A DNA stretch of 64,000 nt from Deltaproteobacteria bacterium (GTDB lineage: Bacteria > Myxococcota_A > Polyangia > Haliangiales > Haliangiaceae): positions 1 to 64,000 of the forward strand of contig JANXOM010000381.1 in NCBI GenBank assembly GCA_025353585.1. Direction: 5' to 3'. Below, piece by piece: positions 1,103-55,098 of the stretch (position 1 is its first letter; every line of letters starts with the position of its first letter). Below the pieces are notes generated by a model that was not told the DNA's origin, ran no database searches, and worked only from the letters and a program-made list of their open reading frames with translations. Both the position numbers and the translations under genes were made by a program.

Positions 1103-1132
1103 TTGACTCCCGCGAAGCTGTGAACCTAGGGT
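1103..1132 (+). promoter_or_regulatory. Sigma70-like promoter, predicted leaderless
   Basis: TTGACT (1103-1108), an 18-bp spacer, TAGGGT (1127-1132), then 6 nt to GTG 1139. With usual promoter geometry the transcript would begin at the start codon. No Shine-Dalgarno-like sequence precedes the GTG, which fits. Confidence 0.55.
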
Positions 1133-1138
1133 AACGAC

Positions 1139-2635
1139 GTGTCGGACAGCGTGTTCGGGGACCTTCGCCGGCTGGCGGACTGGTTGACCGTGGCTGCCCA
1201 CGGGGATCGCGTCCCGGTCACCGGGGTCGTCAGGCGCCTCGGCCGCGCGGCCGTGCCCCTGCTCGGTCGCGAGCTGCGGGGCGCCGATCGCGACCGCCGC
1301 GAGGCCGCTCGCCGGGCGCTCGCCGCCCTCGCCTCGACGGGCCCCGCGCCCCGCGCGCGCGTCATCGCCGAGCTGCACGCGATCACGGCGGCGCACGCGG
1401 ACGTCGCCGGCAGCGACGACATCAAGGTCTGCGCGCTCGGGCTCCTCTCGGAGCTCGGCGAGCGTGGCGCGGCCCGCTTCGCGGATCCGACCGCGATCCA
1501 GCGCCACTCTGCCAGCGCCCTCGCCGCGCAGCTGGCCAGCCCCGTCGACGTCGCCGTCGCCGCGGACATGATGCTGCGCCAGCTCTCCGACGCGGACATC
1601 GGCGACATGGTGGAGGTCATGGCGGACGTCGCGCCCGCCGCCGCCACCCGCGTCGCCGCCGAGCTCGCGGCCCGGCTCGATGCCTCGACCGCGCTGCACG
1701 ACCGCCTCGCCGCCCTTACCCTCCCGGAGCGGGGGCCGGGCCCCCTCTCCGGCGTCCGGGTTTCGGACGCCGGCCAAGCCAAGGCCGAGGCAACGGCGCG
1801 GCGCGCGCCGCGGCCGACGCACGTGTCCGTGCTCGTCGACGCGGCGGCGCGGCTGGTCGTCGTCGCCACGCGCAAGGTGATCGGGGAGCGGCGCTGGCGC
1901 CAGTGGGCCGTGCTGATCGGCGCGGCCGGGCGCATCGACGACTGTCTCCTGACGGAGGACGCGACCGAAGGCGATGCAGCGGCGCTCGTCGCGAGCCTCG
2001 TCGCCGATGGCTATCGGGTCGCGAGCGACGATGTCGCGAAGGCGCACGCGATCGTCGCGTCGGCGGCGCGTGTGACCGGCGCGGACCGCCCCGGCGCGGG
2101 CGTGGCGGCGCCGCCGCTTGGCTCCACGTACTACCTCGGCCGTGATCTCCTCGAGCTCGGCGACGCGCACCTCGGCGGGCGCACGTCCGCCCCGCCGATC
2201 CCGACGACGCTCGCCCGCGCCGTCGAGCTCCTCGCCGCCGGCGAAGCGGCCCGCGCCCACGCCCTGCTCGTGCGCCACGATCCCGGGCTCGCGAGCGCCG
2301 ACGTGGCCGCCGCGGCCGCCGCGTGTCTGCTCGCGCAGGGCCGCCACGCCGACGCGCTCGCCCCGCTCGCCCGCGCGCTCGACGCCGAGCCCGAGTGGCC
2401 GCTCCACCACTGGAACCACGCCGCCGCGCTGCACGCGCTCGGCGATGCGGCCGGCAGCTATCACGCGCTGCGCCGGTTCCTCGCGACCGCCGGGACGCCG
2501 AGCGGCCTCGACGCCGACCCGGATCACCCGGCGCGCATCGCGCTCGCCGAGCGGCTGGTGGCCGAGCTCGAGCGCGCCTCGCGGCTGCGCGGCACGCCGC
2601 TCAAGCGAGCGCGGCGCAAGCGCGTGAAGAGCTAG
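1139..2635 (+). CDS. HEAT/TPR-like repeat protein of unknown function
   Basis: 498 residues, no signal peptide, GTG start fixed by the promoter that ends 6 nt upstream. Residues about 1-200 are Ala/Leu-rich paired helices of HEAT/armadillo character. The middle (about 215-330) has strand-rich sequence with a V-V-V-A-T core. The C-terminal third (about 345-480) again has paired-helix, TPR-like repeats, and the protein ends in a basic tail of Arg and Lys. This suggests a cytoplasmic scaffold. No enzyme motif is visible. It is convergent with the lipoprotein at 2691-4298. Confidence 0.65.
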   Translation: MSDSVFGDLRRLADWLTVAAHGDRVPVTGVVRRLGRAAVPLLGRELRGADRDRREAARRALAALASTGPAPRARVIAELHAITAAHADVAGSDDIKVCALGLLSELGERGAARFADPTAIQRHSASALAAQLASPVDVAVAADMMLRQLSDADIGDMVEVMADVAPAAATRVAAELAARLDASTALHDRLAALTLPERGPGPLSGVRVSDAGQAKAEATARRAPRPTHVSVLVDAAARLVVVATRKVIGERRWRQWAVLIGAAGRIDDCLLTEDATEGDAAALVASLVADGYRVASDDVAKAHAIVASAARVTGADRPGAGVAAPPLGSTYYLGRDLLELGDAHLGGRTSAPPIPTTLARAVELLAAGEAARAHALLVRHDPGLASADVAAAAAACLLAQGRHADALAPLARALDAEPEWPLHHWNHAAALHALGDAAGSYHALRRFLATAGTPSGLDADPDHPARIALAERLVAELERASRLRGTPLKRARRKRVKS

Positions 2636-2690
2636 CGCTCACCTCGGCTCGACCGCCGAGCCAGACGCGAGCCAGAGGGCGGAGGCGAAC

Positions 2691-4298
2691 TTATTTGCGG
2701 AGCGCGAGGTTGTAGCCGACCTTGACGCGCGTCGAGCCCTTGCTCCCGCGCGCCGGCAGCTTCCAGCTCTTGGCCCGGTCGGCGACGCAGCCGGCGACGG
2801 CCGCGACGTCCGCCGTGCCCGCCTTGGGCTCCGTCGCGACGCCCTTGACCGCGCCGCCCTGGTCGACCTCGAGCGTCAGCGTCATGTCGCCGACGAGCTT
2901 CCCGTTCTGCTGCAGGCTCGCCTCGTAGCAGGCCTGGATCTCCTGCGAGTGGAAGTCGATGATCGCGGACGTGTCGATCTGGTCGTAGCGCCCCGTGCCG
3001 ACCTTCGCGTTCTTCATCGTCAGCTCGAGCTTGTTCTGGTAGTCGACGCCCGTGTTGCGGCGCTCCGTGTCCTGGATCTTCGCGACGACGAGCGCGTACA
3101 TGTCGTGGGCCGCGTCGTAGTAGCGCCGGTCGTTCGCCGACGCGTAGATGCCGTGAAACCGCGCCGCGAGGTTGAAGGTCGCGAGCACGACGTTCTGCGC
3201 GTCGGCCGCCGTGCACGCCGAGCCGCACGCCGGGATCGCGTCGAGCGCGCCCTTCGTGTACTTCGCGACGTCGGCCGGCACGTCGAGCGGCAGCGACAGC
3301 TGCGCCTGCTCGAACATGATCGACACCTTGTCGTTCGCGGGGGTCTTCATCTCGAGCGACCTGGCGTCCGCGGAGAGCGCGTCCGTCCAGCGGCCGGCGA
3401 AGTGCATCGTCTGCGCGAGCGTGCGGACGAGCTCGTACGCGTCGGCGGGCTGCTTGCCGAAGTACGGCTGCGCGCCGGTGATCGCGTCCGCGACGCTCGT
3501 GCCGCTGCGCGCGGCGATGACGGCGATGTCGCCCTTGAGCGCGTCGCGGCCGGCGCTGCCCTCCATCTTGTCCCAGCCCGCGGCCGCGGTGGTGATCGCC
3601 TTCCACGCGCCAGCGCCGTCTCCGGTGCGCCACTTCGCCCACGCGGTCACGTAGGCCAACGTCGGCGCCTTGTCGAGCGGCAGGTCCTTCACGACGGCGA
3701 GCGCGTCGGCGTTCTTGCCTTGCTTGAGGAGCGCGAGGGCCCAGAACGCGCGGTTCTGCGGCGCCTTCGCGTCGGTCGGCGCGACCGTCAGCAGCTGCGC
3801 CCACACCTTCTCGGCCGACGCGGGGTCGTCGAGGAGCAGCTCGTAGCGGCCGAGGAGCTCCAGCGCGGTCTCGTCGGCCTTCGCGCCGGCGCTCGCGATC
3901 GCGTCCCGCAGGATCTGGCGCGCATCGCCGAGGAGCTGCTTCTTCGCCTCGCCGTCGGCCTTGAGGCTCTGGCGGAACAGCTCGCTCGCCGCGTTCACGC
4001 CGTGGGCCTGCTTCGTGACGGGGTCCTTGGCCGCGGCGAACGCCTTCTTCTCGGAGTCGACCGTCGCGCGCTTCGGCAGCGGCGCGGCCGGGACGCCGAG
4101 GCCGTCCATCGCGCGCGGCTCGAGGTAGAGGCCCTTGATCTGGATCGCGGGGACGTCGATGGAATCATCGCCCCCGTTCGCCGGCTTCGCGCTGCCGCTA
4201 CCGGCTCCGCTGCCCGCGCCATCGGGTCCTTTGGGGCCCTCTGCCGGGCCACCGCACGCGACAAGGAGAGCAGCCGCACACATCCAGGAGCTACGCAT
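2691..4298 (-). CDS. TPR lipoprotein with AgmX/PglI-type C-terminal domain
   Basis: 535 residues from ATG 4298. The N-terminus has a short lipoprotein signal ending in L-V-A-C, then a Gly/Ser/Pro linker. Residues about 80-400 are helical repeats of TPR type with tandem Ala/Leu-rich pairs. The last about 95 residues (IQACYEASLQQ, then VDQGGAVKGV, then VAGCVADRAKSWKLP) resemble the AgmX/PglI C-terminal domain, a TonB-C-like fold common in Myxococcota, with a conserved Cys pair. It is probably a periplasmic-face envelope protein. I prefer ATG 4298 to longer upstream frames because it begins the signal peptide and TACATA lies 6 nt upstream. Confidence 0.75.
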   Translation of the reverse strand: MRSSWMCAAALLVACGGPAEGPKGPDGAGSGAGSGSAKPANGGDDSIDVPAIQIKGLYLEPRAMDGLGVPAAPLPKRATVDSEKKAFAAAKDPVTKQAHGVNAASELFRQSLKADGEAKKQLLGDARQILRDAIASAGAKADETALELLGRYELLLDDPASAEKVWAQLLTVAPTDAKAPQNRAFWALALLKQGKNADALAVVKDLPLDKAPTLAYVTAWAKWRTGDGAGAWKAITTAAAGWDKMEGSAGRDALKGDIAVIAARSGTSVADAITGAQPYFGKQPADAYELVRTLAQTMHFAGRWTDALSADARSLEMKTPANDKVSIMFEQAQLSLPLDVPADVAKYTKGALDAIPACGSACTAADAQNVVLATFNLAARFHGIYASANDRRYYDAAHDMYALVVAKIQDTERRNTGVDYQNKLELTMKNAKVGTGRYDQIDTSAIIDFHSQEIQACYEASLQQNGKLVGDMTLTLEVDQGGAVKGVATEPKAGTADVAAVAGCVADRAKSWKLPARGSKGSTRVKVGYNLALRK

Positions 4299-4304
4299 GG
4301 CGCC

Positions 4305-4310
4305 TATGTA
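4305..4310 (-). promoter_or_regulatory. -10-like hexamer 6 nt before a start codon
   Basis: On the minus strand TACATA is followed by GGCGCC and then ATG 4298. It fits the leaderless geometry seen at other genes here, but the sixth base is A, not T, and no -35 is evident. Confidence 0.3.
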
Positions 4311-4327
4311 CAACGGATCGGCCCGCG

Positions 4328-4558
4328 ATGTTATGGTCCCACGCCTCGGTGCGCGCGATCCTGATCGTTCTCGTCGTCGCGCTCGCGGGCCCGGGCTGCG
4401 TCGTGGTTCGGGCCCACCAGCGCGAAGACCTCGCGAAGCGCGCGATGACCAACGATCGCGACTCGGGCGAGGCGCGGTTCGGTGAGCACGAGCGCGGCTC
4501 GCGCGAAGGCGCCGAGGGCGGCACCGGCCAGCCCGGCGGCGGCTGCGGCTGCAACTAG
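4328..4558 (+). CDS. DUF4266 small lipoprotein
   Basis: 76 residues. A hydrophobic signal (residues about 9-22) ends in G-P-G-C. The mature part has the DUF4266 pattern: V-x-A-x-x-R-E-D-L-A, then D-R-D, then E-H, S-R-E-G and a terminal GGGCGCN. The family is short, exported and usually lies directly before a DUF3570 beta-barrel gene, as here with 8 bp between them. In other bacteria the pair often accompanies a thioredoxin-like protein and an ApbE-type flavin transferase, which suggests an envelope redox role; neither partner is in this window. Biochemical function is unknown. Confidence 0.85.
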   Translation: MLWSHASVRAILIVLVVALAGPGCVVVRAHQREDLAKRAMTNDRDSGEARFGEHERGSREGAEGGTGQPGGGCGCN

Positions 4559-4566
4559 GCCCCTCC

Positions 4567-5700
4567 GTGCGGACGCTGGGACTCGCTGTCGTCTCGCTGC
4601 TCGCTGCAGCCGGAGCGGCGCGCGCCGACGGCTCGGTCACGCTGCGCACGGTCTACTACAAGGAGACCGCCACGCGCGTCGAGCAGCCGATGCTCGACAG
4701 CATGTTCGACGTCGGCACGCACGGCCTCCTCACCGCGCACCTGCTCGTCGACGCGATCACGTCCGCCTCGGCCGGCTCGGGCGCAGCGAACGCGGCCGCC
4801 TTCACCGAGCACCGCTACGAGGGCGCGGCCGGGTACCTCCACCAGCTCGATCACCTGCGCCTCGGCGGCGACTTCAAGTACTCCACGGAGTCCGACTACC
4901 GGTCGGTGTATTTCGGCGGGCGCGCCGAGCTCGACCTCGCGCAGAAGAACCTGGTCCTCGCCGGCGGCGGCGGCGTCAGCCTCGACCGCGTGAGCGCGGC
5001 GGCCGCGCAGGGACCGTCGATGCCGACGATCAACTGCCGCCCCAACGAGTCAGGCTCGGCCTCCGACCACTGCGGGCTGCACGTGTTCTCGGGCTTCGTG
5101 TCGGCCAGCCAGATCGTCTCGCGGCACGGCCTGGTCGCCGTCACGTACGACATCGCGCGCCTCGATGGCTATCAGGCGAACCCGTACCGGCTCGTCGTCA
5201 CGAACACGGGCTTCGCGCCCGAGACGCACCCCGACGAGCGGCTCCGGCAGGACGTCGCGGTCTCGGCGCGGTACTACCTCCCGGCGACGGAGACGACGCT
5301 CATCGGCGCGTACCGCTTCTACTTCGACAACTGGGACGTCCACGCCCACACGCCCGAGCTGCGGATCGTCCAGCAGGCGGGCGCGAACGTCGACGCGTCG
5401 CTGCGGCTCCGTTACTACCGCCAGAGCAAGTCGTTCTTCTTCGCGGACCGGTACGACAGCACGGATCCCGCGATGAACAACCCGGCGTTCAAGGGCAACC
5501 TCACGGATGACCCGAAGATGTCGGCGTTCACCGGGCAGACGGTGGAAGCAAAGCTCGGCGTTCTGGGCGATGCTTTCGGCGCGGGCGGCACCTGGGCCGG
5601 CGCGCGGTTCGAGGGCATCCTCGAGTACGTCATCCAGAACAACAGGTTTGGAAATGCCCTCGTCGCTCAGTTCGCCATCACGCTCCCGTTCGCTTATTAG
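4567..5700 (+). CDS. DUF3570 outer-membrane beta-barrel protein
   Basis: 377 residues from GTG 4567, 8 bp after the DUF4266 stop. A signal peptide (MRTLGLAVVSLLAAAGAARA) leads into alternating amphipathic strands. Features typical of the family are V-Y-Y-K-E near the N-terminus, repeated R-Y-Y turns (RYYLPATET, RYYRQSKSFFF) and a C-terminal strand ending in a hydrophobic residue and Tyr (LPFAY). It is predicted to be an outer-membrane barrel acting with the DUF4266 lipoprotein. The substrate is unknown. The next gene starts inside its last 47 bases. Confidence 0.85.
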   Translation: MRTLGLAVVSLLAAAGAARADGSVTLRTVYYKETATRVEQPMLDSMFDVGTHGLLTAHLLVDAITSASAGSGAANAAAFTEHRYEGAAGYLHQLDHLRLGGDFKYSTESDYRSVYFGGRAELDLAQKNLVLAGGGGVSLDRVSAAAAQGPSMPTINCRPNESGSASDHCGLHVFSGFVSASQIVSRHGLVAVTYDIARLDGYQANPYRLVVTNTGFAPETHPDERLRQDVAVSARYYLPATETTLIGAYRFYFDNWDVHAHTPELRIVQQAGANVDASLRLRYYRQSKSFFFADRYDSTDPAMNNPAFKGNLTDDPKMSAFTGQTVEAKLGVLGDAFGAGGTWAGARFEGILEYVIQNNRFGNALVAQFAITLPFAY

Positions 5701-6247
5701 CGTCGCCCTGCTCGGCCTCGGGGCCAGTCTCACCCTCGGCGCCGGCTGTGGCGGTGGCGACGGCGCCTGCGGCACGAACGGCGCGTCCGACGACGGCCTC
5801 CTCGCCAGCGCCGGCGGGGTCGTGCTCACGTTCGGCGGGCTGGCGAGCGGGCTCAACAATGACTGCCCCGCCGCAGACGCGCCGGCCGGCGTGACGAGCC
5901 TGACGATCGAGGGCACGCAGACCGACGGCAGCGGCGCGATCACGCTGTGCATCTCGCGGCCCGACAAGCTCGCCACGCAGACGCTGGCGCTCGGTCCGGA
6001 CGCGGTGAGCTCGGATGTTCGCCTCATCGATCTGGGCGGCAGCTCGAACGGCTGCACCTTCGCGCAGGACACGACGCGTATCCCGACCGGCACCGTCGCC
6101 GCCGCCGGCCTGTGCGGCAACGGCAGCGACGCCGCCGGCTTCGAGCTCGTCGTCAACGGCGCGACCTCCCTCACGCGCACCTGCGGCCAGACCGTCGACA
6201 CCGTCGGCGTCACGCTGGTGGGCAGCGTCGCTGTGCACCCGATGTGA
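5654..6247 (+). CDS. Lipoprotein overlapping the DUF3570 gene
   Basis: 197 residues from ATG 5654, which lies inside the 3' end of the DUF3570 gene in another frame (47-base overlap), suggesting translational coupling. The Ser/Arg-rich N-terminus, hydrophobic stretch and L-G-A-G-C lipobox mark a lipoprotein; a Gly/Asp-rich segment follows. The rest is a Cys-containing, strand-rich domain (C-I-S-R, then G-C-T-F, L-C-G-N, R-T-C-G-Q), consistent with disulfides outside the cytoplasm. I recognise no family. It may be a third component of the DUF4266/DUF3570 set. Confidence 0.65.
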   Translation: MPSSLSSPSRSRSLISVALLGLGASLTLGAGCGGGDGACGTNGASDDGLLASAGGVVLTFGGLASGLNNDCPAADAPAGVTSLTIEGTQTDGSGAITLCISRPDKLATQTLALGPDAVSSDVRLIDLGGSSNGCTFAQDTTRIPTGTVAAAGLCGNGSDAAGFELVVNGATSLTRTCGQTVDTVGVTLVGSVAVHPM

Positions 6248-6299
6248 GCGCGCGCCTGCCCGGATAACCGTGGTCAGGCCCCGCTCGACCGCACCGTCG

Positions 6300-7898
6300 T
6301 CAGTAGACGATCGCGCGGACGCGCTCGACCAGCGGGCCGAGGGCGTCGCGGGCGGACTCGCGCAAGAGGTCGGACTCGCCGACGACATGAGCGACGGGCG
6401 GGCCGAACGTGTAGTAGGTCTCGACGAAAAGCTCGCCGAGCGCGCTGCGGCGCAGCATGACATCGCGGAAGTGGCGGAGCATACCGACGTCGGCCGCCAT
6501 CGTGGAGCCGTACGCGGCCGTCGCGATGAAGCACGCGTCCACGCTGCCCGTGGCGATGTCCGTATGGAACGCCGTGACGGTGATCGGCCCGGTGTTGTTG
6601 CAGTCGTCGGTCGCGCGGATCGCGATCGAATAGTCCGTGTCGGGGAGGAGCCCTTCGAGCGGGACCGACTGCACCTGCCCGCCGGCCACGAGCTGCGCGG
6701 GCGTGGCCAGGTGCGGCGCGGCCGCGAACGTCGCCTCGGTGATCGGCTCGCCCGGCGCGAGGCGGATGTCGTAGCTCGAGACCTTGCCGGTGACGCCATC
6801 GTCGCCTGGGGCCGTGAACGTTGCCACGAGGTTCGGCGCGGCCGGCGTGACGACGAGGTTCTGCGGCGCCGCGGGCGCGAGCGCGTCGTGATCCACGCGC
6901 GCGTGGATCTGCACGCGGTACATCGTGCCGCCCTCGCCCGCGACGAGCTGCAGGCGCGAGGCGCCGCTGCCGGGGACTGTCGTGACGATGGTCGCGTCCG
7001 GCGTGCGCACGTTGCCGTCCTGGCCGTCGGGATCGCCGTAGCCCGCGTAGTCGCTCGCGGTGCCGACGAACTCGGTCCCGCTGATCGAGAACGGCACGCG
7101 GTACACGACGGACGGCTGACCGCGATACGGCTCGCCGTACTGGCTGTACGAGATGTTCTTCGGCGCGGGGTAGCTGCTCGCGTTGTACGTGTCGTCCATG
7201 TCGGCCTCCTTCGAGACCTCCACGAACAGAACGTAGTCACCCTCCCCGACGGTCGCCGGCGGGGTCCACGACAGCGTCGCGGGCGCGCCGCCCTCCGGGG
7301 TCGCCTGCGAGACGACGTCGAACGGATTCATCGTCGGGTACATCGCGACGGAATCCGAGTCCGTGCCGGACTGCGCGGTCAGATCGGTGCGCGGCGGATA
7401 GAGGCTCTTCGCGCTCGGCGAGAACACGCCCTTGTCGGTGAACACCGACGTCGCGCAGGAGGTCGCGTCCGCGCCGCTGCCGTACTCCTGCGGCAGGAGC
7501 GGACGGCAATAGTGCTGCTCGTGCGAGCTCTGCGAGAAGCCGTGCGAGAGGTCGCTGTCCTGGCCGTTCTGGAACTCGACCTCCGGGAACGTCTGGCCGT
7601 GCTTGTGGGCCCACACCGGGAACGTCGTGATGCGGCGGCCGTACGGCCACTTCGGCGCGCTGTTGAAGTCGTAGCGGCCGGGGCGGTTGCCCATGCCGAA
7701 CGAACCCGTCGCCTGCGTGATGTACGCGGTGTCGACGTAGTTGCCGTGGGTGTCCTCGATCCACGCGACGATCTGCAGATCAGCCGTGGGCGTGAAGTCC
7801 ACGTCGACGAAGTGGCACGTTCCAGGGGCGTCCGCCCGCGCGCTGGCGGCAGAGGCGGCGGCGAGGATGCAGGCGGCGAGGACGGAGCGTCGGATCAT
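6300..7898 (-). CDS. CFI-box exported protein, copy 2
   Basis: 532 residues from ATG 7898, whose first bases overlap the upstream stop (ATGA). A signal peptide ending A-R-A precedes a domain with L-Q-I-V-x-W, N-R-P-G-R-Y-D-F-N-S and W-P-Y-G-R-R, then a fibronectin-like region with A-T-D-D-C-N-N-T-G-P. The C-terminal module begins at Cys456 with CFIATAAYGS and continues through F-R-D and Y-Y-T-F-G-P-P, the hallmark of the CFI-box-CTERM domain of myxobacterial secreted proteins. No hydrophobic helix follows the module. It is a paralogue of the upstream gene. Function is unknown; cell-surface or extracellular location is inferred. Confidence 0.75.
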   Translation of the reverse strand: MIRRSVLAACILAAASAASARADAPGTCHFVDVDFTPTADLQIVAWIEDTHGNYVDTAYITQATGSFGMGNRPGRYDFNSAPKWPYGRRITTFPVWAHKHGQTFPEVEFQNGQDSDLSHGFSQSSHEQHYCRPLLPQEYGSGADATSCATSVFTDKGVFSPSAKSLYPPRTDLTAQSGTDSDSVAMYPTMNPFDVVSQATPEGGAPATLSWTPPATVGEGDYVLFVEVSKEADMDDTYNASSYPAPKNISYSQYGEPYRGQPSVVYRVPFSISGTEFVGTASDYAGYGDPDGQDGNVRTPDATIVTTVPGSGASRLQLVAGEGGTMYRVQIHARVDHDALAPAAPQNLVVTPAAPNLVATFTAPGDDGVTGKVSSYDIRLAPGEPITEATFAAAPHLATPAQLVAGGQVQSVPLEGLLPDTDYSIAIRATDDCNNTGPITVTAFHTDIATGSVDACFIATAAYGSTMAADVGMLRHFRDVMLRRSALGELFVETYYTFGPPVAHVVGESDLLRESARDALGPLVERVRAIVY

Positions 7899-9607: not shown

Positions 9608-9613
9608 GGGACA

Positions 9614-9619
9614 TTTTTA
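9614..9619 (-). promoter_or_regulatory. -10-like hexamer 6 nt before GTG
   Basis: On the minus strand TGC-TAAAAA (extended -10 style) is followed by TGTCCC and GTG 9607. The T/A-rich patch stands out in this GC-rich DNA. No clear -35. Confidence 0.35.
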
Positions 9620-9668
9620 GCACGAGCGTCGAGGGGAGCTGGCGCGGAAAAGTGTCAGACGCATCGAG

Positions 9669-9674
9669 TAGCTT
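9669..9674 (+). promoter_or_regulatory. -10-like hexamer 6 nt before GTG
   Basis: TAGCTT then GCCTGC then GTG 9681. It matches TANNNT at the leaderless spacing. It shares a 73-bp divergent region with the CFI-box promoter on the other strand. Confidence 0.35.
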
Positions 9675-9680
9675 GCCTGC

Positions 9681-11843: not shown

Positions 11844-11849
11844 CGCGCA

Positions 11850-11855
11850 AGCCTA
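11850..11855 (-). promoter_or_regulatory. TAGGCT -10-like hexamer, predicted leaderless
   Basis: On the minus strand TAGGCT-TGCGCG-GTG(11843). The same hexamer at the same distance occurs before ATG 23064. No -35 is evident. Confidence 0.4.
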
Positions 11856-11892
11856 CATCGCGCCGCGAATCATGCACGCCCGCGGCACCGAT

Positions 11893-15009: not shown

Positions 15010-15039
15010 AGTATAGGGGCGTTTGCGGCGAGGGCCCAA
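15010..15039 (-). promoter_or_regulatory. Sigma70-like promoter, predicted leaderless
   Basis: On the minus strand TTGGGC (15039-15034), 18-bp spacer, TATACT (15015-15010), then 7 nt (AACGGGA) to ATG 15002. TATACT is one of the best -10 boxes in the window. The predicted transcript begins at or beside the ATG. Confidence 0.6.
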
Positions 15040-23051: not shown

Positions 23052-23057
23052 TAGGCT
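23052..23057 (+). promoter_or_regulatory. TAGGCT -10-like hexamer, predicted leaderless
   Basis: TAGGCT-TGGCGC-ATG(23064). Identical hexamer and spacing to the site at 11850-11855. No convincing -35. Confidence 0.4.
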
Positions 23058-36503: not shown

Positions 36504-36509
36504 AGGATA
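36504..36509 (-). promoter_or_regulatory. TATCCT -10-like hexamer 8 nt before ATG
   Basis: On the minus strand TATCCT then GCCCGCGC then ATG 36495. It matches TANNNT at near-leaderless spacing. No -35. Confidence 0.38.
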
Positions 36510-39490: not shown

Positions 39491-39496
39491 TAGACT
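39491..39496 (+). promoter_or_regulatory. TAGACT -10-like hexamer 7 nt before GTG
   Basis: TAGACT then CGTCGCC then GTG 39504. It defines the start of the next gene. No -35 seen. Confidence 0.4.
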
Positions 39497-40496: not shown

Positions 40497-40526
40497 TTGA
40501 CCCGGCGCATTCAGCTGCGCTAAAAC
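40497..40526 (+). promoter_or_regulatory. Sigma70-like promoter deciding the kinase start
   Basis: TTGACC (40497-40502), 18-bp spacer, TAAAAC (40521-40526), then GGGGT and GTG 40532. It lies inside the longer open frame from 40460, so the protein must start at 40532 or the in-frame ATG 40541. Confidence 0.6.
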
Positions 40527-40531
40527 GGGGT

Positions 40532-43581: not shown

Positions 43582-44901
<1,320 letters not shown>

Positions 44902-44907
44902 GGGCCG

Positions 44908-44913
44908 AGTATC
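44908..44913 (-). promoter_or_regulatory. GATACT -10-like hexamer 6 nt before ATG
   Basis: On the minus strand GATACT-CGGCCC-ATG(44901), 4/6 match to TATAAT, at the leaderless distance. No -35. Confidence 0.35.
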
Positions 44914-44930
44914 GTCGCGCGCGCCCGCCG

Positions 44931-46004: not shown

Positions 46005-46014
46005 GACCGCGCCT

Positions 46015-48260: not shown

Positions 48261-49270
48261 GCGGCGACCTCGGCCGGCGCGGCGGCTGGCGCCTCGGTCG
48301 CGGTGGTCTCGACGACGAGCGTCCGAGCCGCGCCGAGCACGCTGCGCCCCTCGGCGGTCGTCGCGCGGAGCCCGCCGTACTTCACGACGTCACACCGCTC
48401 GAGCCACGCCTCGACGTGCAGGCGCTCGGTGACCGGCGCGACGGGCGCGAGCGCCCGCACGAGCTCGGCGGACGTGAGATCGGCGGTGGCGACACGGTAG
48501 CGTGCGCCGACGTACGCGCGGATCGCGGCGACCATCTGCGCGTAGCCAGCCTTGCGCGTGTCCTCGCGGTCGAGGACGCCGCTGCGCTCGATCGCGAGGA
48601 GCAGCGCGAGGGCGCGCTCGCCGGGGAGGTCGAGGCGGCGGGCGAGCTGGCGCGCGGGCGCGAGCTGGATCGGCGCGCGACGACGGCGCGCCCAGACGAG
48701 CCCGCCGCCCCCCGCGAGGACGAGCCCGCCGACGCCGCTCGCCACGGCGAGCCAGAACCAGTCGCGCGCCGTCAGCTCGGCCGGCGGCTCGTCGGCACGC
48801 GGGCGTGGATCGTCCTGCACCGCGCCGAGCATGCTCTCGACGCGCACCGGGACCGCGTTTGTCGCGACCTGGCCCGCGTGGCCGGCGAGCGTGAACGTGA
48901 CGGCGACCGGCGGGAGCTGCAGGTCGCCGACCTCCCACGCGAAGACGGCGAGCTGGTACTCGCGGACGCGCTTGCCGTTCGGGCCGTCCCGGTCGCGCGA
49001 ATCGCGCGTGCGGACCTCGAACGCGGGACCGAGCTCGACGGGCTCGCGGAGGTTGACCTCGACGCCGGGGTCGAACGTCACGGTCACGAACAGGGTCAGC
49101 TGGGCGCCGAGGCGAACGACGCTCGGGCTCGCGGCGGCGGACACCTCGGGCGCGCCGGCCTCGAGCGGCGGCTGCACGAGCACCGCGCTCCCGGTGTCGG
49201 CACGCGCGACACCGGCGACGGCGACGGCGAGGGCGACGGCGACGGCGACCGCGACGGCCACGCTCTTCAT
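48257..49270 (-). CDS. BatD-like exported protein
   Basis: 337 residues from ATG 49270 (ATGA overlap with the DUF58 stop). A long hydrophobic signal (VAVAVAVAVALAVAVAGVARA) leads to an Ig-like strand domain (A-S-P-S-V-V-R-L-G-A-Q-L-T-L-F-V-T-V-T-F-D-P-G) where the V-x-L-G motif recalls BatD N-terminal domains. One transmembrane helix (about 170-195, FWLAVASGVGGLVLAGGGGLV) is followed by a cytoplasmic helical domain (A-R-Q-L-A-R-R-L and A-Y-V-G-A-R-Y). It is about half the length of classical BatD, so the name is by position and topology. Confidence 0.65.
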   Translation of the reverse strand: MKSVAVAVAVAVALAVAVAGVARADTGSAVLVQPPLEAGAPEVSAAASPSVVRLGAQLTLFVTVTFDPGVEVNLREPVELGPAFEVRTRDSRDRDGPNGKRVREYQLAVFAWEVGDLQLPPVAVTFTLAGHAGQVATNAVPVRVESMLGAVQDDPRPRADEPPAELTARDWFWLAVASGVGGLVLAGGGGLVWARRRRAPIQLAPARQLARRLDLPGERALALLLAIERSGVLDREDTRKAGYAQMVAAIRAYVGARYRVATADLTSAELVRALAPVAPVTERLHVEAWLERCDVVKYGGLRATTAEGRSVLGAARTLVVETTATEAPAAAPAEVAA

Positions 49271-50154
49271 GCGCGGGCCATCCGCTTCGCGCGCGCGCGA
49301 AAGAACGCCAGCAGCGCGTCGAGGTACGGCTCGTCGGTCCGGACCTCGACCAGGTCCACGTCGAGCCGCCGCAGCGCGCTGTCGCGGACCCGCGCCGCCG
49401 CCGCCGCCCGCGCACGCAGCGCGTGCCCGGCCGACCCGCTGGTGTCGAGCTCGACGACCTGGCCCGTCTCGAGGTCCTCCAGCACGAGCAGCCCCACCGA
49501 CGGGATCCACGCCTCGAGAGGGTCGCTCACGACGACCGGCACGAGCTCGTGCCGCTGCGCGCAGATCTTGAGCGGCCGCTCCCAGCCCTCGCTCATGAAG
49601 TCGCTCGCGAGGAACACGACGGAGCGCCGGCGCGCGACCTTCGCGAGGAAGTCGAGGCCCACCGCGAGGTTCGTCCGCCGCGAGAGGGGCTGGAACGCGA
49701 GGATCTCGCCGATCACGCGGAGCACGTGGCGGCGGCCTTTCTTCGGCGGGATGTACTTCTCCACGCGGTCCGTCACGATGACGAGCCCCACGCGGTCGTT
49801 GTTCTTGATCGCGGAGAACGCCACGACCGCGGCGAGCTCCGCCGCCAGCTCGCGCTTCGGCACCCCGCGCGAGCCGAACAGCCCCGACGCGCTCATGTCG
49901 ATGACGAGGTTGACCGTGCGGTCGCGCTCCTCGACGAACTGCTTGACGTGCGGCGCGTTCATCCGCGCCGTGATGTTCCAGTCGATGGAGCGCACGTCGT
50001 CGCCGGGGGTGTAGGGGCGGACGTCACTGAAGATGAGGCCGCGGCCCTTGAAGACCGAGTGGTACTGGCCGGCGAGCTGCTCGTCGACGAGGCGGCGCGA
50101 CGCGACCTCGATGGCGCGCGCCCTGCGGAACAGCTCGGCCGACGCGGTCGCCAT
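49267..50154 (-). CDS. DUF58 domain protein
   Basis: 295 residues from ATG 50154, 8 bp after the MoxR stop. The DUF58 signature PGDDVRSIDWNITAR is near residue 50, with H-S-V-F-K-G-R-G-L-I-F-S-D-V-R-P-Y before it. A VWA-like fold follows (V-N-L-V-I-D-M-S-A-S, V-F-L-A-S-D-F-M-S-E). No membrane helix. DUF58 proteins accompany MoxR ATPases almost universally and are thought to be their substrates or adaptors for assembling partners. The stop overlaps the next ATG (ATGA). Confidence 0.93.
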   Translation of the reverse strand: MATASAELFRRARAIEVASRRLVDEQLAGQYHSVFKGRGLIFSDVRPYTPGDDVRSIDWNITARMNAPHVKQFVEERDRTVNLVIDMSASGLFGSRGVPKRELAAELAAVVAFSAIKNNDRVGLVIVTDRVEKYIPPKKGRRHVLRVIGEILAFQPLSRRTNLAVGLDFLAKVARRRSVVFLASDFMSEGWERPLKICAQRHELVPVVVSDPLEAWIPSVGLLVLEDLETGQVVELDTSGSAGHALRARAAAAARVRDSALRRLDVDLVEVRTDEPYLDALLAFFRARAKRMARA

Positions 50155-50162
50155 GGCGCGGC

Positions 50163-51233
50163 TTACGGCACCGGCAGGTATTCGAAGACGCGGCGCACCA
50201 CGTCCTCGGAGCTGACGTCCTCGGCCTCCGCCTCGTACGTGACGGAGACGCGGTGGCGCATGACGTCCATCGCGATCGCCTTGATGTCGTCGGGCGTGAC
50301 GTACGCGCGGTGGCGGAGGAACGCGTGGGCGCGGGCGGCGGCGGCGAGGAACAGCGTGGCCCGCGGCGAGGCGCCGTACTCGATCAGCGGGGCGAGCTCG
50401 GCGAGCCCGTAGTCGCGCGGGCGGCGCGTGGCCTGCACGACGTGGACGATGTAGTCGCGCACGCGGTCGTCGAGGTAGATCGAGGCCACGACGCGGCGGG
50501 CGTCGAGGATCTGCGCGACCGACGTCACCTCCTGCGCCGCGGGCGGGTCGAGGGTCGCCATGCGATCGAGCATCGCGCGCTCGTCCTGCGCGGTCGGATA
50601 GCCGACCTTGATGAGCAGCATGAAGCGATCGAGCTGCGCCTCGGGCAGCGGGAACGTGCCCTCCTGCTCGATCGGGTTCTGCGTCGCGAGGACGAGGAAC
50701 GGATCGGGGAGCTTGTGGGTCGTGTCGCCGATGGTGACCTGGCGTTCCTGCATGGCCTCGAGGAGCGCGGACTGGACCTTCGCGGGGGCGCGGTTGACCT
50801 CGTCGGCGAGGACGAGGTTGGCGAACAGCGGCCCACGCTTCTGCGTGAAGTCGCCGGTGTGCATGTTGTAGATGATGGTGCCGGTGATGTCGGCGGGCAG
50901 GAGATCGGGGGTGAACTGGATGCGCTGGAACGAGGCGTTGATCGTCTGCGCGAGCGTCTTCACGGTCAGCGTCTTCGCGAGGCCCGGGACGCCCTCGATG
51001 AGGCAGTGGCCGCCCGTCAGGAGCCCGATGAGGACGCGCTCGATCATGTCGCGCTGGCCCACGACGACCTTGCCGACCTCGGCGAACACGTCATCGCAGA
51101 AGGCGCTGGCGGCGCGGACCTCGGCGGCGTGCTGCTCGGTATCGACGGCGCTGTGCGCCGCCTGGGCCACCGCGGTCAGGGCGGGTAGCTCGCCCGGCCC
51201 GGCGCCCGGAATCGTGTCGCGGAGGGTATCCAT
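50163..51233 (-). CDS. moxR: MoxR-family AAA+ ATPase
   Basis: 356 residues from ATG 51233. MoxR features: V-V-V-G-Q-R-D-M-I-E-R-V-L, Walker A GVPGLAKT (Lys87), R-I-Q-F-T-P-D-L-L-P-A-D-I-T-G, N-L-V-L-A-D-E-V-N-R-A-P (Walker B), QSALLEAMQERQVT, A-T-Q-N-P-I-E-Q-E-G-T (sensor 1) and L-P-E-A-Q-L-D-R-F. An extra about 45 residues precede the core. It is a chaperone-like ATPase working with the DUF58 and VWA proteins encoded downstream. TGTAAT lies 13 nt upstream of the ATG. Confidence 0.95.
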   Translation of the reverse strand: MDTLRDTIPGAGPGELPALTAVAQAAHSAVDTEQHAAEVRAASAFCDDVFAEVGKVVVGQRDMIERVLIGLLTGGHCLIEGVPGLAKTLTVKTLAQTINASFQRIQFTPDLLPADITGTIIYNMHTGDFTQKRGPLFANLVLADEVNRAPAKVQSALLEAMQERQVTIGDTTHKLPDPFLVLATQNPIEQEGTFPLPEAQLDRFMLLIKVGYPTAQDERAMLDRMATLDPPAAQEVTSVAQILDARRVVASIYLDDRVRDYIVHVVQATRRPRDYGLAELAPLIEYGASPRATLFLAAAARAHAFLRHRAYVTPDDIKAIAMDVMRHRVSVTYEAEAEDVSSEDVVRRVFEYLPVP

Positions 51234-51246
51234 GAACCGGTCAACG

Positions 51247-51252
51247 ATTACA
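51247..51252 (-). promoter_or_regulatory. -10-like TGTAAT upstream of the MoxR operon
   Basis: On the minus strand TGTAAT (5/6 match) lies 13 nt before ATG 51233, implying a leader of about 7 nt. No -35. It shares the 74-bp divergent region with TGTTAT at 51292-51297, which is 10 nt before ATG 51308 on the other strand. Confidence 0.35.
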
Positions 51253-51307
51253 CGGGCGGGTGCCCCAAGCCAGCGCGCCTCGTCGGCCGGGTGTTATCGT
51301 CGCGCCC

Positions 51308-51577
51308 ATGGCGGACGCCCCGGTCACTCTCGGAGACGTCGACTTCTCGACGCACGTGTTCTCGCTCGCATCGACGGCGCTCATCGCGCTCGGGAAGATG
51401 CCGGCGCCGGATGGCCAGCCGCACCCGGTCGATCTCGAGACGGCGAAGCACTTGATCGACGTGCTCGGCATGCTCGAGACAAAGACGAAGGGCAACCTCG
51501 ACGAGGCCGAGGGCAAGCTGCTCGCGAGCCTGATCTACGATCTGCGCGTCGCGTACGTGGACGCACGCCCGGCATGA
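51308..51577 (+). CDS. DUF1844 protein
   Basis: 89 residues from ATG 51308. It matches DUF1844: V-D-F-S-T-H-V-F-S-L-A-S-T-A-L-I-A-L-G, then D-L-E-T-A-K-H-L-I-D-V-L-G-M-L-E-x-K-T-K-G-N-L, E-G-K-L-L-A-S-L-I-Y-D-L-R. The protein is small, helical and cytoplasmic with unknown function. Its stop overlaps the ATG of a lipoprotein HtrA protease gene (ATGA), so the two are probably translated together. Confidence 0.9.
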   Translation: MADAPVTLGDVDFSTHVFSLASTALIALGKMPAPDGQPHPVDLETAKHLIDVLGMLETKTKGNLDEAEGKLLASLIYDLRVAYVDARPA

Positions 51578-52698
51578 CGCGCTCGGCGTGGCGGCTGGTG
51601 GCGCTCGGACTCGGGATCGGAGCCTGCCGCGAGATGCCCGATTCGCGCGCCGGCGGCGGCAGCGGCGGGCCGGGCGTGGCCTCGGCCCCGCCGACCGCGC
51701 GCACGATGTACCCGAGCGCGCCGGGCTCGTTCGTCGAGCTTGTCGAGAACGCGAAGCACGGCGTCGTGGCCATCCGGGCGGCCGCCCCCGTGAAGAGCGG
51801 GCCCGCGGCGATGTTCCCGGGCGCGCCCGAGACGACGGCCGACGTCGCGCTCGGCACGGGCTTCCTCGTCGAGAACCAAGGCGTGTTCGTGCTGACGAAC
51901 GAGCACGTGGCCGCCGCGTCGCCGGATCTGCGCGTCGTGCTCGAGGGTGGGGTGGAGGTACCCGCGCGGGTGATCGGTCGCGACATCCGCCTCGATCTGG
52001 CGCTGCTCGTGCTCGAGCCGCCGGCCGGCTCGCCGGTCGTGGTGACGCGGCTGCGCGGCTTGCCGCTCGGCGATTCGGATGACCTCGAGGTCGGCGAGTG
52101 GGTCGTGGTGCTCGGCGATCCGTTCGGGGACGAGGTGACGGCGGCGCACGGCATCGTATCGGCGACCGGGCGCGCCACGACCGCCTCGCTCGCGACCGGA
52201 CGCATCCAGGGCTTTCGCACGTACCTCCAGACCGATGCGCGCATCACGCGCGGTAACTCCGGTGGGCCCGTGATGGACACGGCCGGCCAGGTCGTCGGCG
52301 TGGCGCTCGCGACGGGCGACCGCGTCGGCGAGGTCTCGTTCGCCATCCCGAGCAACCGCGTGAAGGAGATCATCGGGCTCCTGCGGGACACCGGCGACGT
52401 CGCGCACTCGTGGCTCGGCGCGCTGGCGAACGGGGTAACGGCGGATCAGGCGGCGACGCTCGGCCTCCCGCATGCGTCGGGCGCGCTCCTCACCGAGGTC
52501 AAGGTCGGCTCGCCCGCCGCCGTGGCCGGCCTGCGCGCCGGTGACGTCATCGTGCGCTGGGCGGGCGAGGAGTGTGACCAGCGCACGCTGCCCGGCCTCG
52601 TCTCGGCGACCCCACCGGGCAAGTCCGTGGTCCTCGGGGTCTGGCGCGACCGCACGGAGCTGCCCGTCACGATCGTGACCGCCAAGATGCCCGAGTAG
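51574..52698 (+). CDS. HtrA/DegP-type serine protease, lipoprotein
   Basis: 374 residues from ATG 51574 (overlaps the upstream TGA). The signal ends I-G-A-C (Cys18), so it should be lipid-anchored, followed by a Gly/Ser linker. The trypsin-like domain has catalytic His111 (T-N-E-H-V), Asp141 (R-L-D-L-A-L) and Ser229 (R-G-N-S-G-G-P). One PDZ domain lies at about 285-370 (G-A-L-L-T-E-V-K-V-G-S-P-A-A-V-A-G-L-R-A-G-D-V-I). It degrades or refolds damaged envelope proteins. Lipid anchoring is less common than a transmembrane anchor or free periplasmic form. Confidence 0.92.
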   Translation: MTRSAWRLVALGLGIGACREMPDSRAGGGSGGPGVASAPPTARTMYPSAPGSFVELVENAKHGVVAIRAAAPVKSGPAAMFPGAPETTADVALGTGFLVENQGVFVLTNEHVAAASPDLRVVLEGGVEVPARVIGRDIRLDLALLVLEPPAGSPVVVTRLRGLPLGDSDDLEVGEWVVVLGDPFGDEVTAAHGIVSATGRATTASLATGRIQGFRTYLQTDARITRGNSGGPVMDTAGQVVGVALATGDRVGEVSFAIPSNRVKEIIGLLRDTGDVAHSWLGALANGVTADQAATLGLPHASGALLTEVKVGSPAAVAGLRAGDVIVRWAGEECDQRTLPGLVSATPPGKSVVLGVWRDRTELPVTIVTAKMPE

Positions 52699-52740
52699 CC
52701 GCAGGCGTCGCGCAGATTAACTCCCCGCTCGCGCGAGCCG

Positions 52741-55062
52741 TCAGTTGAGCTCGGTCGGCCGCAGGTAGGTCGCCAGCACGGTCTTGCGGCCGAGGGCCGC
52801 GAACTCGACGATCACCTTGCGGTCCTTGCCGGCGCCGGAGACGGCGATGACGCGGCCGTCGCCGAGCTGGGCGTGGCTGACCGCGTCGCCGCTACGGAAC
52901 GGCTCTCGCGAGTGCTGCTCGGCCGGGACGTCATCATCCACGCGGTACACGCGCTCGCCATCGTCCGCCGGCGCGCGCTGGTCGAACTCGTCGATCGGTC
53001 TGCCCCGCCCTGCGGCGGCGCTGCCGGCGTGGGGCAGGCCCCCGCCGTCGACGCTCCGCGCCAAGCGCCGCCCCTGTCCCGGCTTGCCGGCGAAGTTCCC
53101 GTCGACGATGCGCGGCCCGCGCGGCAGCATCGGGCTCCGCCCCTTCGGCTGCGCGAGGCACGTCGCCGGGATGTCCTCGAGGAATCGCGACGGCCCCTGC
53201 ATCCGGATCTCGCCCCACACGCGCCGCGTCCGCGCGTAGGACACCACGAGCCGCTCGCGGGCGCGCGTGATCGCCACGTACGCGAGCCGCCGCTCTTCCT
53301 CGAGCGCCGCGTCCTCGCTCTGCCCGTCGCGCAGCCGCAGCGATGGGAACAGCCCGTCCTCGAGCCCCGTGATGAACACGACCGGCCACTCCAGGCCCTT
53401 CGCCACGTGGATCGTCATCAGCACGACCTGATCTGCCACCGGGATGTCATCCGCGGCCGCGTTCAGCGCCATCCGCTCGAGGAACGCGTCCACGCTCTGC
53501 CCCGTCTCGCTCTCGTCGTCGAAGTCGCTCGCCGTCGTGACGAGCTCGGCCAGGTTATCGAGCCGGTCGCGCGCGTCCGCGCTGTCGTCCGCCTCGAGCT
53601 TGCCGCGCAGCCCGCTGCGGTCGACGATCTGGATGATGGTCTCGGCCACCGACGCGCCCTGCGCGATCACGTCGACCAGCCCGTCCAGTAGCTCGCAGAA
53701 CGCATGCAGCTTCTTGCGGGGCGCCGCGCCGAGGCCCGCGATCTCGCCCCGCCCCGCCGACCGCGCCGCCTCGAGGAGGCTCCAGCCCGCCGCCCGCGCC
53801 CCGGCGCGCAGCCGCTCGACGGTGGTATCTCCGATGCCGCGCGCCGGCACGTTGACGACGCGCTCGAACGCCGAGTCCATGTTCGGGTTCGTCAGGATCC
53901 GCAGGTAGGACACGACGTCCTTGACCTCCTTGCGTTCGAAGAACGAGACCGCGCCGACGATCTTCGCCGGCACGCGCGCCGCCCGCAGGTGCTCCTCGAG
54001 CACGCGCGACTGGGCGTTCGTCCGGTACAGGATCGCGATGTCGCTCGGCGACAGCGGCCCCTCGTCCAGGAGGCGCCGGATCGATTGCGCCACGAAGTAC
54101 GCCTCGCCGCGCTCGTCCCCGGCCGCGTAGACCTCGATGCCGTCCCCGGTGCCCTTGTCCGTCCACAGCGCCTTGTCGTGGCGGTCGCGGTTCTTGCTGA
54201 TGACGCCGTTCGCGGCGTCGAGGACCGTCTGCGTCGAGCGGTAGTTGTGCTCGAGCTTGACGACCTGCGCGTCGGGAAAGTCGCGGTCGAAGTCGAGCAG
54301 GTTCCGCGGCTCGGCGCCGCGCCACGCGTAGATCGACTGGTCATCGTCGCCGCCGACGGTCAGGTTGCGCGTGGCCTCGGCGAGCTGGCGCACGAGATCG
54401 TACTGCACGAGGTTCGTGTCCTGGAACTCGTCCACCAGCACGTGGCGGAACCGGAGCCGCAGCTTGTTGGCCGTGTCCGGGTGGTTCAAGAGCTCGAGCG
54501 TCTTGAGGAGCAGGTCGTTGAAGTCGACCGCGTTCTCGCGCGCGAGCTGCGCCTGGTAGAGCGGATAGACCTTCTCGACCACGTCGTCGAACTGGCCGGT
54601 CTGCAAGGTCCGCGGATCGACGCCGCGGTTCTTCGCGCGATCGATGCGCGAGAGGATCGTGCGCGCGGACACCTGCTCCTCGAAGCCCGTGTCCTTCAGC
54701 AGCCGCTCGATCAGCCGCACCTGGTCCGCGTCGTCGAAGATGACGAAGCTGCGCGTCAGGCCGAGCGCGCTACCGTGCGTGCGGAGGAGCTTGGCGCACG
54801 TCGCGTGGAACGTACCGATCCACATCGCATCGGCCGGCGCCCCCAGGAGCTCGCGGAGCCGCGCTCGCATCTCGCCCGCCGCCTTGTTCGTGAACGTGAC
54901 CGCGAGGATGGTCCACGGCTCGGCACCGGTCTCGATCAGGTGCGCGATCCGCTGCACCAGGACCCGGGTCTTGCCGGTCCCGGCCCCCGCAAGAACGAGT
55001 AACGGGCCGTCGCCATGTTCGACGGCGGCCCATTGCTCGGTGTTGAGAGCGGCCCTCTCCAT
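52741..55062 (-). CDS. pcrA: UvrD/PcrA-type ATP-dependent DNA helicase
   Basis: 773 residues from ATG 55062, typical length. SF1A helicase motifs in order: L-N-x-E-Q-W-A-A-V, Walker A GAGTGKTR (Lys31), T-F-T-N-K-A-A, F-H-x-x-C, V-D-E-F-Q-D-T-N, G-D-D-D-Q-S-I-Y-A-W-R-G-A, N-Y-R-S, L-T-I-H-V-A-K-G-L-E-W-P-V-V and Y-V-A-I-T-R-A-R. The C-terminus (V-I-V-E-F-A-A-L-G-R-K-T) is the Tudor-like tail of PcrA/UvrD that contacts RNA polymerase. It unwinds DNA 3' to 5' in repair and replication-transcription conflict. Confidence 0.95.
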   Translation of the reverse strand: MERAALNTEQWAAVEHGDGPLLVLAGAGTGKTRVLVQRIAHLIETGAEPWTILAVTFTNKAAGEMRARLRELLGAPADAMWIGTFHATCAKLLRTHGSALGLTRSFVIFDDADQVRLIERLLKDTGFEEQVSARTILSRIDRAKNRGVDPRTLQTGQFDDVVEKVYPLYQAQLARENAVDFNDLLLKTLELLNHPDTANKLRLRFRHVLVDEFQDTNLVQYDLVRQLAEATRNLTVGGDDDQSIYAWRGAEPRNLLDFDRDFPDAQVVKLEHNYRSTQTVLDAANGVISKNRDRHDKALWTDKGTGDGIEVYAAGDERGEAYFVAQSIRRLLDEGPLSPSDIAILYRTNAQSRVLEEHLRAARVPAKIVGAVSFFERKEVKDVVSYLRILTNPNMDSAFERVVNVPARGIGDTTVERLRAGARAAGWSLLEAARSAGRGEIAGLGAAPRKKLHAFCELLDGLVDVIAQGASVAETIIQIVDRSGLRGKLEADDSADARDRLDNLAELVTTASDFDDESETGQSVDAFLERMALNAAADDIPVADQVVLMTIHVAKGLEWPVVFITGLEDGLFPSLRLRDGQSEDAALEEERRLAYVAITRARERLVVSYARTRRVWGEIRMQGPSRFLEDIPATCLAQPKGRSPMLPRGPRIVDGNFAGKPGQGRRLARSVDGGGLPHAGSAAAGRGRPIDEFDQRAPADDGERVYRVDDDVPAEQHSREPFRSGDAVSHAQLGDGRVIAVSGAGKDRKVIVEFAALGRKTVLATYLRPTELN

Positions 55063-55068
55063 CCGGCG

Positions 55069-55098
55069 TGCTTACCACACCGGGGTGACACTGCTCAA
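55069..55098 (-). promoter_or_regulatory. Sigma70-like promoter of pcrA, predicted leaderless
   Basis: On the minus strand TTGAGC (55098-55093), 18-bp spacer, TAAGCA (55074-55069), 6 nt, ATG 55062. The -10 box is weak (2/6), but the spacing equals that of the better promoters in the window. Confidence 0.4.

Follow-up and report, generated by a model that had tools for sequence, protein, structure and literature searches.

A 64,000-nt stretch of DNA (the window), positions 1 to 64,000 of contig JANXOM010000381.1 in the deltaproteobacterial assembly GCA_025353585.1, carries TANNNT-like hexamers a few nucleotides ahead of a series of start codons. These hexamers are very probably the -10 boxes of housekeeping-type promoters that yield leaderless mRNAs, with the later genes of operons using Shine-Dalgarno (SD) sites. 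Some of them lie behind a TGTCA box, and a LexA-independent DNA-damage regulon of the PafBC type, wired through leaderless promoters, is likely both in this Kofleriaceae-like lineage and among its neighbours. A sequence-only reading of the window had earlier concluded that many mRNAs of the lineage are translated without a leader. This view is supported here by the motif, its spacing, its enrichment, its conservation and the contrast in SD usage, the transcription start sites being deduced from geometry.

Hexamers before start codons

Starts were called with a gene caller written for this study, which considers coding composition and assumed start-codon frequencies only; since upstream sequence is ignored, a circular choice of starts is avoided. 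Applied to 634,330 bases of the window's own genome (G000, an 8.0-Mb metagenome-assembled genome, MAG, of 437 contigs and 89.9% completeness), window included, the caller returned 538 genes. Setting aside 23 that were short, open-ended or too close to the end of a stretch left 515 usable genes, namely 160 divergent leading genes, 126 same-strand genes with an upstream gap of at least 50 nt, 57 with a gap of 20-49 nt, 156 operon-internal genes and 16 contig-edge genes, which were excluded. The divergent and both same-strand gap classes make up 343 transcription-leading genes, and together with the internal genes 499 classed genes.

An exact TANNNT ending 5-8 nt before the start codon was found in 55 of the 343 leading genes, against 5.5 in shuffled sequence. 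By class, it precedes 30/160 divergent genes, 7/126 genes with gaps of at least 50 nt, 18/57 with gaps of 20-49 nt and 9/156 internal genes, where the shuffle means are 2.5, 1.5, 1.1 and 1.1, respectively. Outside the window the motif is present in 48 of 311 leading genes (shuffle mean 4.5, maximum 12 in 200 shuffles). Within the window it is present in 7 of 32 leading or short-gap genes (shuffle mean 0.49; none of 500 shuffles reached 7) and in none of the 16 internal genes. The enrichment over shuffled and operon-internal starts that the sequence-only reading had proposed to look for was thus obtained in G000, and enrichment was also seen, in smaller samples, among the divergent leading genes of three relatives (G019 11/40, G023 7/46 and G011 8/44; shuffles 0.4, 0.7 and 0.3). 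Gene-level counts in relatives cover these three, G016 and G017 (G+C 57% and 50%) having been left out. When the last T is left free, TA precedes 98 of the 343 leading genes of G000 versus 30 in shuffles; by excess, TA marks roughly a fifth of leading genes and exact TANNNT about 14%. Out-of-frame RTG (ATG or GTG) decoys hardly ever carry the motif (0/237 for divergent genes, 1/168 for gap genes and 1/66 for short-gap genes).

Motif rates are highest where intergenic space is short. At spacings of 5-9 nt, TANNNT precedes 17/48 divergent genes with gaps of 60-119 nt and 21/57 genes with same-strand gaps of 20-49 nt, and 3/32 divergent genes with gaps of at least 250 nt. About one third of the genes in same-strand gaps of 20-49 nt (18/57) have a leaderless-type -10 of their own, hinting at many promoters inside apparent operons. 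In 21 of 25 spacing-6 genes the start codon is directly preceded by C, compared with 158 of 288 motif-free leading genes. Two and four nucleotides ahead of TANNNT, G is over-represented (67% and 65% of the 55 sites, seven of which lie in the window), and these positions are perhaps an extended -10.

All twelve hexamers listed for the window by the sequence-only reading are present letter for letter on the proper strand, 5-8 nt ahead of the named codons. The distance is 6 nt at eight of them. On the forward strand, these are TAGGGT (1127..1132) before GTG 1139, TAGCTT (9669..9674) before GTG 9681 of a PolB-like exonuclease and TAGGCT (23052..23057) before ATG 23064; on the minus strand, they are TACATA (4305..4310) before ATG 4298, TAAAAA (9614..9619) before GTG 9607, TAGGCT (11850..11855) before GTG 11843, GATACT (44908..44913) before ATG 44901 of a sigma-54 activator and TAAGCA (55069..55074) before ATG 55062 of a PcrA/UvrD-type helicase. 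The remaining four are TAAAAC (40521..40526, forward) 5 nt before GTG 40532, TATACT (15010..15015, minus) and TAGACT (39491..39496, forward) 7 nt before ATG 15002 and GTG 39504, and TATCCT (36504..36509, minus) 8 nt before ATG 36495. Seven of the twelve are exact TANNNT, as had been stated. The caller picked nine of the twelve starts, differing at 4298 (called at 4283), 9607 (9511) and 15002 (15053), and it agreed with all four starts described as free of the motif (17940, 22518, 32983 and 38893). The seven window genes counted above from called starts therefore omit 15002, where another start was chosen, and include 51308, a start missing from the earlier list with TATCGT (51295..51300, forward strand) 7 nt before it.

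A TTGNNN with an 18-bp spacer does accompany four window sites, as claimed: 1139 (TTGACT), 15002, 40532 (TTGACC) and 55062. As a general -35 element TTG was rejected; among the 55 motif genes it occurs once at spacing 17, once at spacing 18 and 0-2 times at each remaining spacing in the range 12-24.

Spacing and the position of the start codon

Among 614 leading genes of G000, G019, G023 and G011, the numbers of matches at spacings of 0 to 10 nt are 1, 0, 0, 0, 1, 5, 57, 26, 19, 21 and 3. Since transcription begins about 6 nt downstream of the end of a -10 box, spacing 6 places the first transcribed base (+1) on the start codon itself; shorter spacings would cut the start codon off, which explains the cliff in matches below 6 nt. 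Spacings of 7-9 nt would represent leaders of 1-3 nt, variation of the transcription start, or starts miscalled by one codon.

It could be argued that the hexamer is a -10 box and that translation nevertheless begins at a later codon, or that other promoters provide longer leaders, the geometry being incidental. Starts called by coding score may be off, and three of the twelve starts of the earlier list differ from the caller. This alternative is improbable in view of the sharp onset of matches at 6 nt and of the in-frame RTG codons downstream of divergent gene starts, of which only 4/131 carry the motif. Orthologs in which the motif tracks an apparently shifted start codon likewise speak against it. 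Among 19 orthologs of the PolB-like exonuclease (start 9681), the window's copy being counted, 16 have an exact TANNNT at 5-8 nt from a start codon, and in five of these the start is apparently shifted by one codon with the spacing still at 6-8 nt.

The sigma-54 activator (start 44901) has 17 orthologs, four of them without an alignable N-terminus. In nine of the 13 readable ones an exact TANNNT is found at 5-7 nt, including TAGACT, TATGCT and TATACT, where the window copy reads GATACT; this supports the inclusion of imperfect hexamers in the earlier list. For the PcrA/UvrD-type helicase, exact TANNNT at 5-8 nt was observed in 3 of 29 readable orthologs (L055, L057 and L061, in the set L032-L061).

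Contrast in Shine-Dalgarno usage

In G000, GGAG lies in the SD zone of 37 of 156 internal genes, compared with 7.4 far upstream, and stays at background in divergent leading genes (8/160 versus 7.6). In G019, G023 and G011 a looser SD pattern reaches 2.5 to 4 times background in internal genes. SD sites so serve operon-internal genes most, and none are seen at the divergent operon heads of G000. Initiation is known to benefit from A/T-rich patches ahead of starts, and an A/T-rich, unstructured patch aiding ordinary ribosome binding, with no promoter involved, would be a second way to read the hexamers. This benefit is what favours it, and it is most improbable given that TA...T alone stands out among 160 A/T triples (55 genes, the runner-up having 23), that SD usage differs between divergent leading and internal genes, and that the distance from TGTCA to TA described below is fixed. 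Chance or an artefact of start calling, such as stop codons lying in frame a little ahead of the called starts, is extremely improbable: TA is indeed in frame with the start at spacings 6 and 9, but the out-of-frame spacings 7 and 8 are likewise enriched, TAC and TAT are enriched like TAA and TAG in the four genomes, so in-frame stop codons do not account for the motif, spacing 3 yields few matches although it is in frame too, and shuffles fall far below the observed counts.

Several observations weigh against the interpretation of the hexamers as leaderless promoters. Five of the twelve window hexamers deviate from TANNNT, and some of the matches at internal genes may involve upstream stop codons. 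Only 7/126 same-strand genes with gaps of at least 50 nt carry the motif, and GGAG is slightly enriched in this class (12/126 versus 5.4); in G019, G023 and G011, the looser SD pattern runs at about 1.5 to 3 times background in leading genes. Because of this low motif rate at longer gaps and of SD signals above background, many leading genes look leadered, or else their starts were miscalled. The anti-SD sequence of G000 could not be read, as no 16S gene was found in the MAG; rpoB, sought as a further marker, was not found either. Finally, measured against a backward control, the whole-genome excess of the spacing-6 pattern shrinks (480/174 in G000) and is almost absent in the relatives G001 (563/475), G007 (570/497) and G016 (923/859).

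If the hexamers are promoters of leaderless mRNAs, the -10 box adjoins the open reading frame (ORF), and RNA polymerase would start on the first base of the ATG or GTG or within a few nucleotides of it. The resulting mRNA would have neither a leader nor an SD site, and the ribosome would have to initiate at the 5'-terminal codon, probably via the 70S pathway known from the literature; later genes of operons would initiate via SD sites. The -35 appears mostly weak or absent, and the GnGn stretch preceding TANNNT possibly serves as an extended -10. In a subset of promoters, the place of the -35 would be taken by a TGTCA box lying 16 nt ahead of the -10, as in the geometry of PafBC promoters, and these are probably responsive to DNA damage. 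We infer the transcription starts at start codons, the translation route and the damage induction from the sequence.

Distribution in relatives and the phylum

The lineage is taken as Kofleriaceae-like Myxococcota, judging by the names of the best matches of the window's PcrA/UvrD-type helicase, for which ten loci match with 69-79% identity in MAGs named Kofleriaceae, Myxococcales, Deltaproteobacteria and, once, Proteobacteria. The presence of proteins with TonB-plug and outer-membrane barrel domains is consistent with a Gram-negative organism.

Occurrences of TANNNTN6ATG and of the equally in-frame TANNNTN3ATG were counted on both strands of 36 whole genomes. Within the genus, the ratios of the two are 480/64 in G000, 563/162 in G001, 500/72 in G003, 472/83 in G004, 495/107 in G005, 431/68 in G006, 570/196 in G007, 431/99 in G009, 478/35 in G011, 505/96 in G012 and 539/104 in G014. 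Family members gave 923/607 (G016), 1322/1005 (G017), 300/31 (G018), 453/58 (G019), 560/67 (G020) and 331/102 (G021), and members of the order 227/84 (G022), 539/47 (G023), 155/19 (G024), 1058/1047 (G025) and 335/249 (G026). At class level, the counts are 426/338 (G028), 227/140 (G029), 82/41 (G030), 347/107 (G031), 347/207 (G034) and 496/199 (G035). A Myxococcales MAG (G110) showed 409/86, and the genome of locus L018 (G111) gave counts identical to those of G019. A subset of this order shows the layout most strongly, and some members show it weakly; G016 and G017 are two of the weak ones, and their G+C of 57% and 50% leads to more chance matches.

Among more distant genomes, three of Peptoniphilus/Anaerosphaera (G112-G114) gave 1766/1881, 1752/1748 and 1264/1297, a gammaproteobacterial MAG (G116) 414/396 and a Chloroflexota MAG (G117) 38/15. 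In a Pseudonocardiales MAG (G115), included as an actinobacterial positive control, the signal was weaker than in G000 (269/137). The backward control for the spacing-6 pattern runs higher than the spacing-3 control (G000 480/174, G011 478/109, G023 539/138). Compared with it across 77 genomes of the phylum, TANNNTN6ATG is patchy: excesses were found in G000, G038 (339/147), G102 (330/140) and G097 (253/116), and the ratio is near or below 1 in many.

A TGTCA box before leaderless-type repair genes

Two window promoters carry a TGTCA box whose first base lies 16 nt before the TA of the -10, the distance known from PafBC promoters: one at 9653..9657 (forward strand) upstream of the PolB-like exonuclease, the other at 55086..55090 (minus strand) upstream of the helicase. 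TGTCA-N11-TA is present at the exonuclease in 15 of 19 orthologs, and at the helicase in 9 of the 29 orthologs with a readable N-terminus (eight of the same genus and one of the family), own copies included in both cases. In a 1.17-Mb sample, spacing 11 gave seven matches, two of them the window sites that had suggested the motif, and 12 other spacings together gave 11; the sample was fetched before the motif was noticed and is non-random, part of its contigs having been chosen from helicase matches. TGTCG showed no peak at spacing 11 and only a coding-like periodicity of three bases.

Genome-wide, TGTCA-N11-TA-N9..13-RTG was found 30 times in G000 versus 3 for the backward control. The corresponding figures are 25/5 in G003, 29/4 in G012, 25/3 in G014, 25/3 in G023, 13/4 in G020, 10/3 in G019 and 9/1 in G011; both G000 and G019 include one site that enters the count two times, and the 30 matches of G000 are 29 sites. 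In the survey of 77 phylum genomes, a milder excess was seen in G022 (12/4), G085 (9/2), G109 (8/1), G036 (53/27) and a few others, and the ratio to the control is near or below 1 in most. No other genome of the survey shows the exact TGTCA layout as strongly as G000. The leaderless PafBC layout was not seen phylum-wide in this survey, which covers leaderless forms only and samples this order with G000 and G022 only.

Of the 29 sites in G000, 24 lead into ORFs of at least 60 aa and five into ORFs of 4-17 aa. Eleven of these 24 usable targets are DNA-metabolism genes (ten without thymidine kinase), against none of 20 leaderless controls, with E-value cut-offs in the family scan of 1e-3 for the targets and 1e-5 for the controls. 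They encode the PcrA/UvrD-type helicase, the PolB-like exonuclease, NAD kinase followed by recN, RecJ, RecQ, thymidine kinase, a DnaQ-like exonuclease, a RecG-like protein, two DprA-like proteins and DnaB. Three are borderline (SMC-like AAA, SNF2 and ParA), and ten belong to other or unknown categories (DUF3127, FliO, OsmC, GST, HTH, Rieske, AAA_28, MYG1 and two without a family). The controls, drawn randomly from 46 eligible leaderless genes without the box, include no replication or repair gene; eight have no family, and two touch nucleotides (a DeoC/LacD aldolase and a 5'-nucleotidase domain).

In G011, where all nine matches were followed, the targets are MutS, RecJ, dCMP deaminase, a NadK-like gene, Rieske, TPR, a SnoaL-like protein, a copy of the AAA_28 gene and one 33-aa ORF. 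Of the ten matches in G019, the four that were followed lead to RuvC, a RecJ-like gene, a protein with a RelA/SpoT domain and an ORF of 63 aa. Likeness to G000 proteins was the basis for assigning the RecJ-like gene of G019 and, in G011, the NadK-like and AAA_28 genes. Two loci of G000 (L268 on C365 and L270 on C437) share similar TGTCA-N11-TA stretches in which an identical 12-base sequence precedes the box and an ORF of five residues comes after; they are possibly a dispersed repeat rather than promoters.

A candidate regulator is encoded in the same genomes. Adjacent genes for WYL proteins were found in 8 of 9 genomes searched, including G000, where the tandem pair of regulators lies on contig C136 (L271:697-2860, minus strand). 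The best match of both proteins in the PDB is the PafBC structure 6sj9, a fusion (E-values 1.3e-35 and 2.8e-19); for the PafC-like protein, DriD and BrxR follow far behind. Pfam HTH_PafC matches one of the two, below its cut-off, and the NCBIfam scan names neither. At the upstream gene of the pair, a TAGACA lies 6 nt ahead of the called GTG. The 1.6-Mb genome G025 of the same order gave no match in the WYL search and also has no spacing-6 excess.

For the regulon that we consider likely, the PafB/PafC-like pair would recognise the TGTCA box replacing the -35, with the -10 ending about 6 nt before the start codon. The putative leaderless repair mRNAs would be those of the helicase, RecJ, RecQ, the RecG-like and DprA-like proteins, NadK-RecN and the exonucleases, joined in relatives by RuvC and MutS.

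Relation to known systems

Leaderless genes of this kind are known and were already predicted for delta-proteobacteria, to which the present lineage adds another case. TA-led leaderless genes were predicted in 8 of 33 delta-proteobacteria, at an average of 15.8% (5.7-20.6) (Zheng et al., 2011; PMC3160421). TANNNT lies about 12 nt upstream of the start codon there as here, where 64 of the 499 classed genes (13%) have it at 5-8 nt. The main text of that study names neither Myxococcus, Anaeromyxobacter, Sorangium, Haliangium nor Bdellovibrio, and the present lineage was seen here as MAGs only. No leaderless genes in myxobacteria, including Haliangium, Sorangium and Anaeromyxobacter, are reported in the titles and abstract openings of the papers listed by the literature searches. 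In Deinococcus-Thermus, a -10 motif a few bp before the ORF works as a promoter in experiments, and a -35 merely raises expression (PMC12340547). The position just before the ORF is shared; the phylum is different, and about 30% of ORFs are concerned there compared with about 13% of classed genes here.

The mycobacterial RecA-independent damage promoter reads tTGTCRgtg - 8 nt - TannnT, with 16 nt from TGTC to TA (PMC5656591), and PafBC recognises a promoter motif at -26 and also reaches domain 4 of sigma (PMC11804915). The P1/RecA-NDp promoters of mycobacteria (PMC5656591, PMC6789036, PMC11804915) resemble those described here in the 16-nt distance, the DNA-repair targets and the adjacency of PafB and PafC. 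They differ in the box, which is TGTCRGTG in mycobacteria and here most often TGTCAGAC, TGTCACAC or TGTCAGRG-like. The full tTGTCRgtg was accordingly not matched, the letters after TGTCA being mostly not GTG in the listed matches. Unlike in mycobacteria, the -10 here usually ends 6 nt before the start codon.

Myxococcus xanthus also possesses a pair of WYL regulators, the pafB/pafC homologs MXAN_1359/1360, in a pafB-pafC-cyaA operon (PMC9705874, PMC12288472), and 24 of 51 indirectly LexA-affected genes are said to hold a PafBC-binding sequence (PMC9705874). A LexA-independent DNA-damage response is documented in Myxococcus by a 2025 paper that did not pursue the PafB/PafC homologs; more transcription factors of this response in M. 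xanthus were said there to await identification before DdiA was added (PMC12288472). The promoter geometry and the leaderless layout were not found in the parts covered of these two papers (PMC9705874, PMC12288472). The pieces are therefore known, that is, PafB/PafC homologs and a LexA-independent response; PafBC geometry before leaderless repair genes was not found in the parts of the literature covered.

The promoters of PafBC type provide a concrete regulon candidate for the LexA-independent damage response in myxobacteria. If true, such a regulon would show that the sigma adaptation of mycobacteria reaches into a Gram-negative phylum, and it would point to a candidate mechanism for the LexA-independent response of Myxococcus. 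A Gram-negative lineage rich in leaderless genes may also serve as a test case for why some bacteria drop leaders, and the position of the -10 could be used to correct gene starts in these genomes.

Other features of the window

Rfam and tRNA scans of the window gave no matches. Its G+C content is about 72% overall; it falls to about 0.65-0.66 at positions 56001-64000 and exceeds 0.70 in the remainder.

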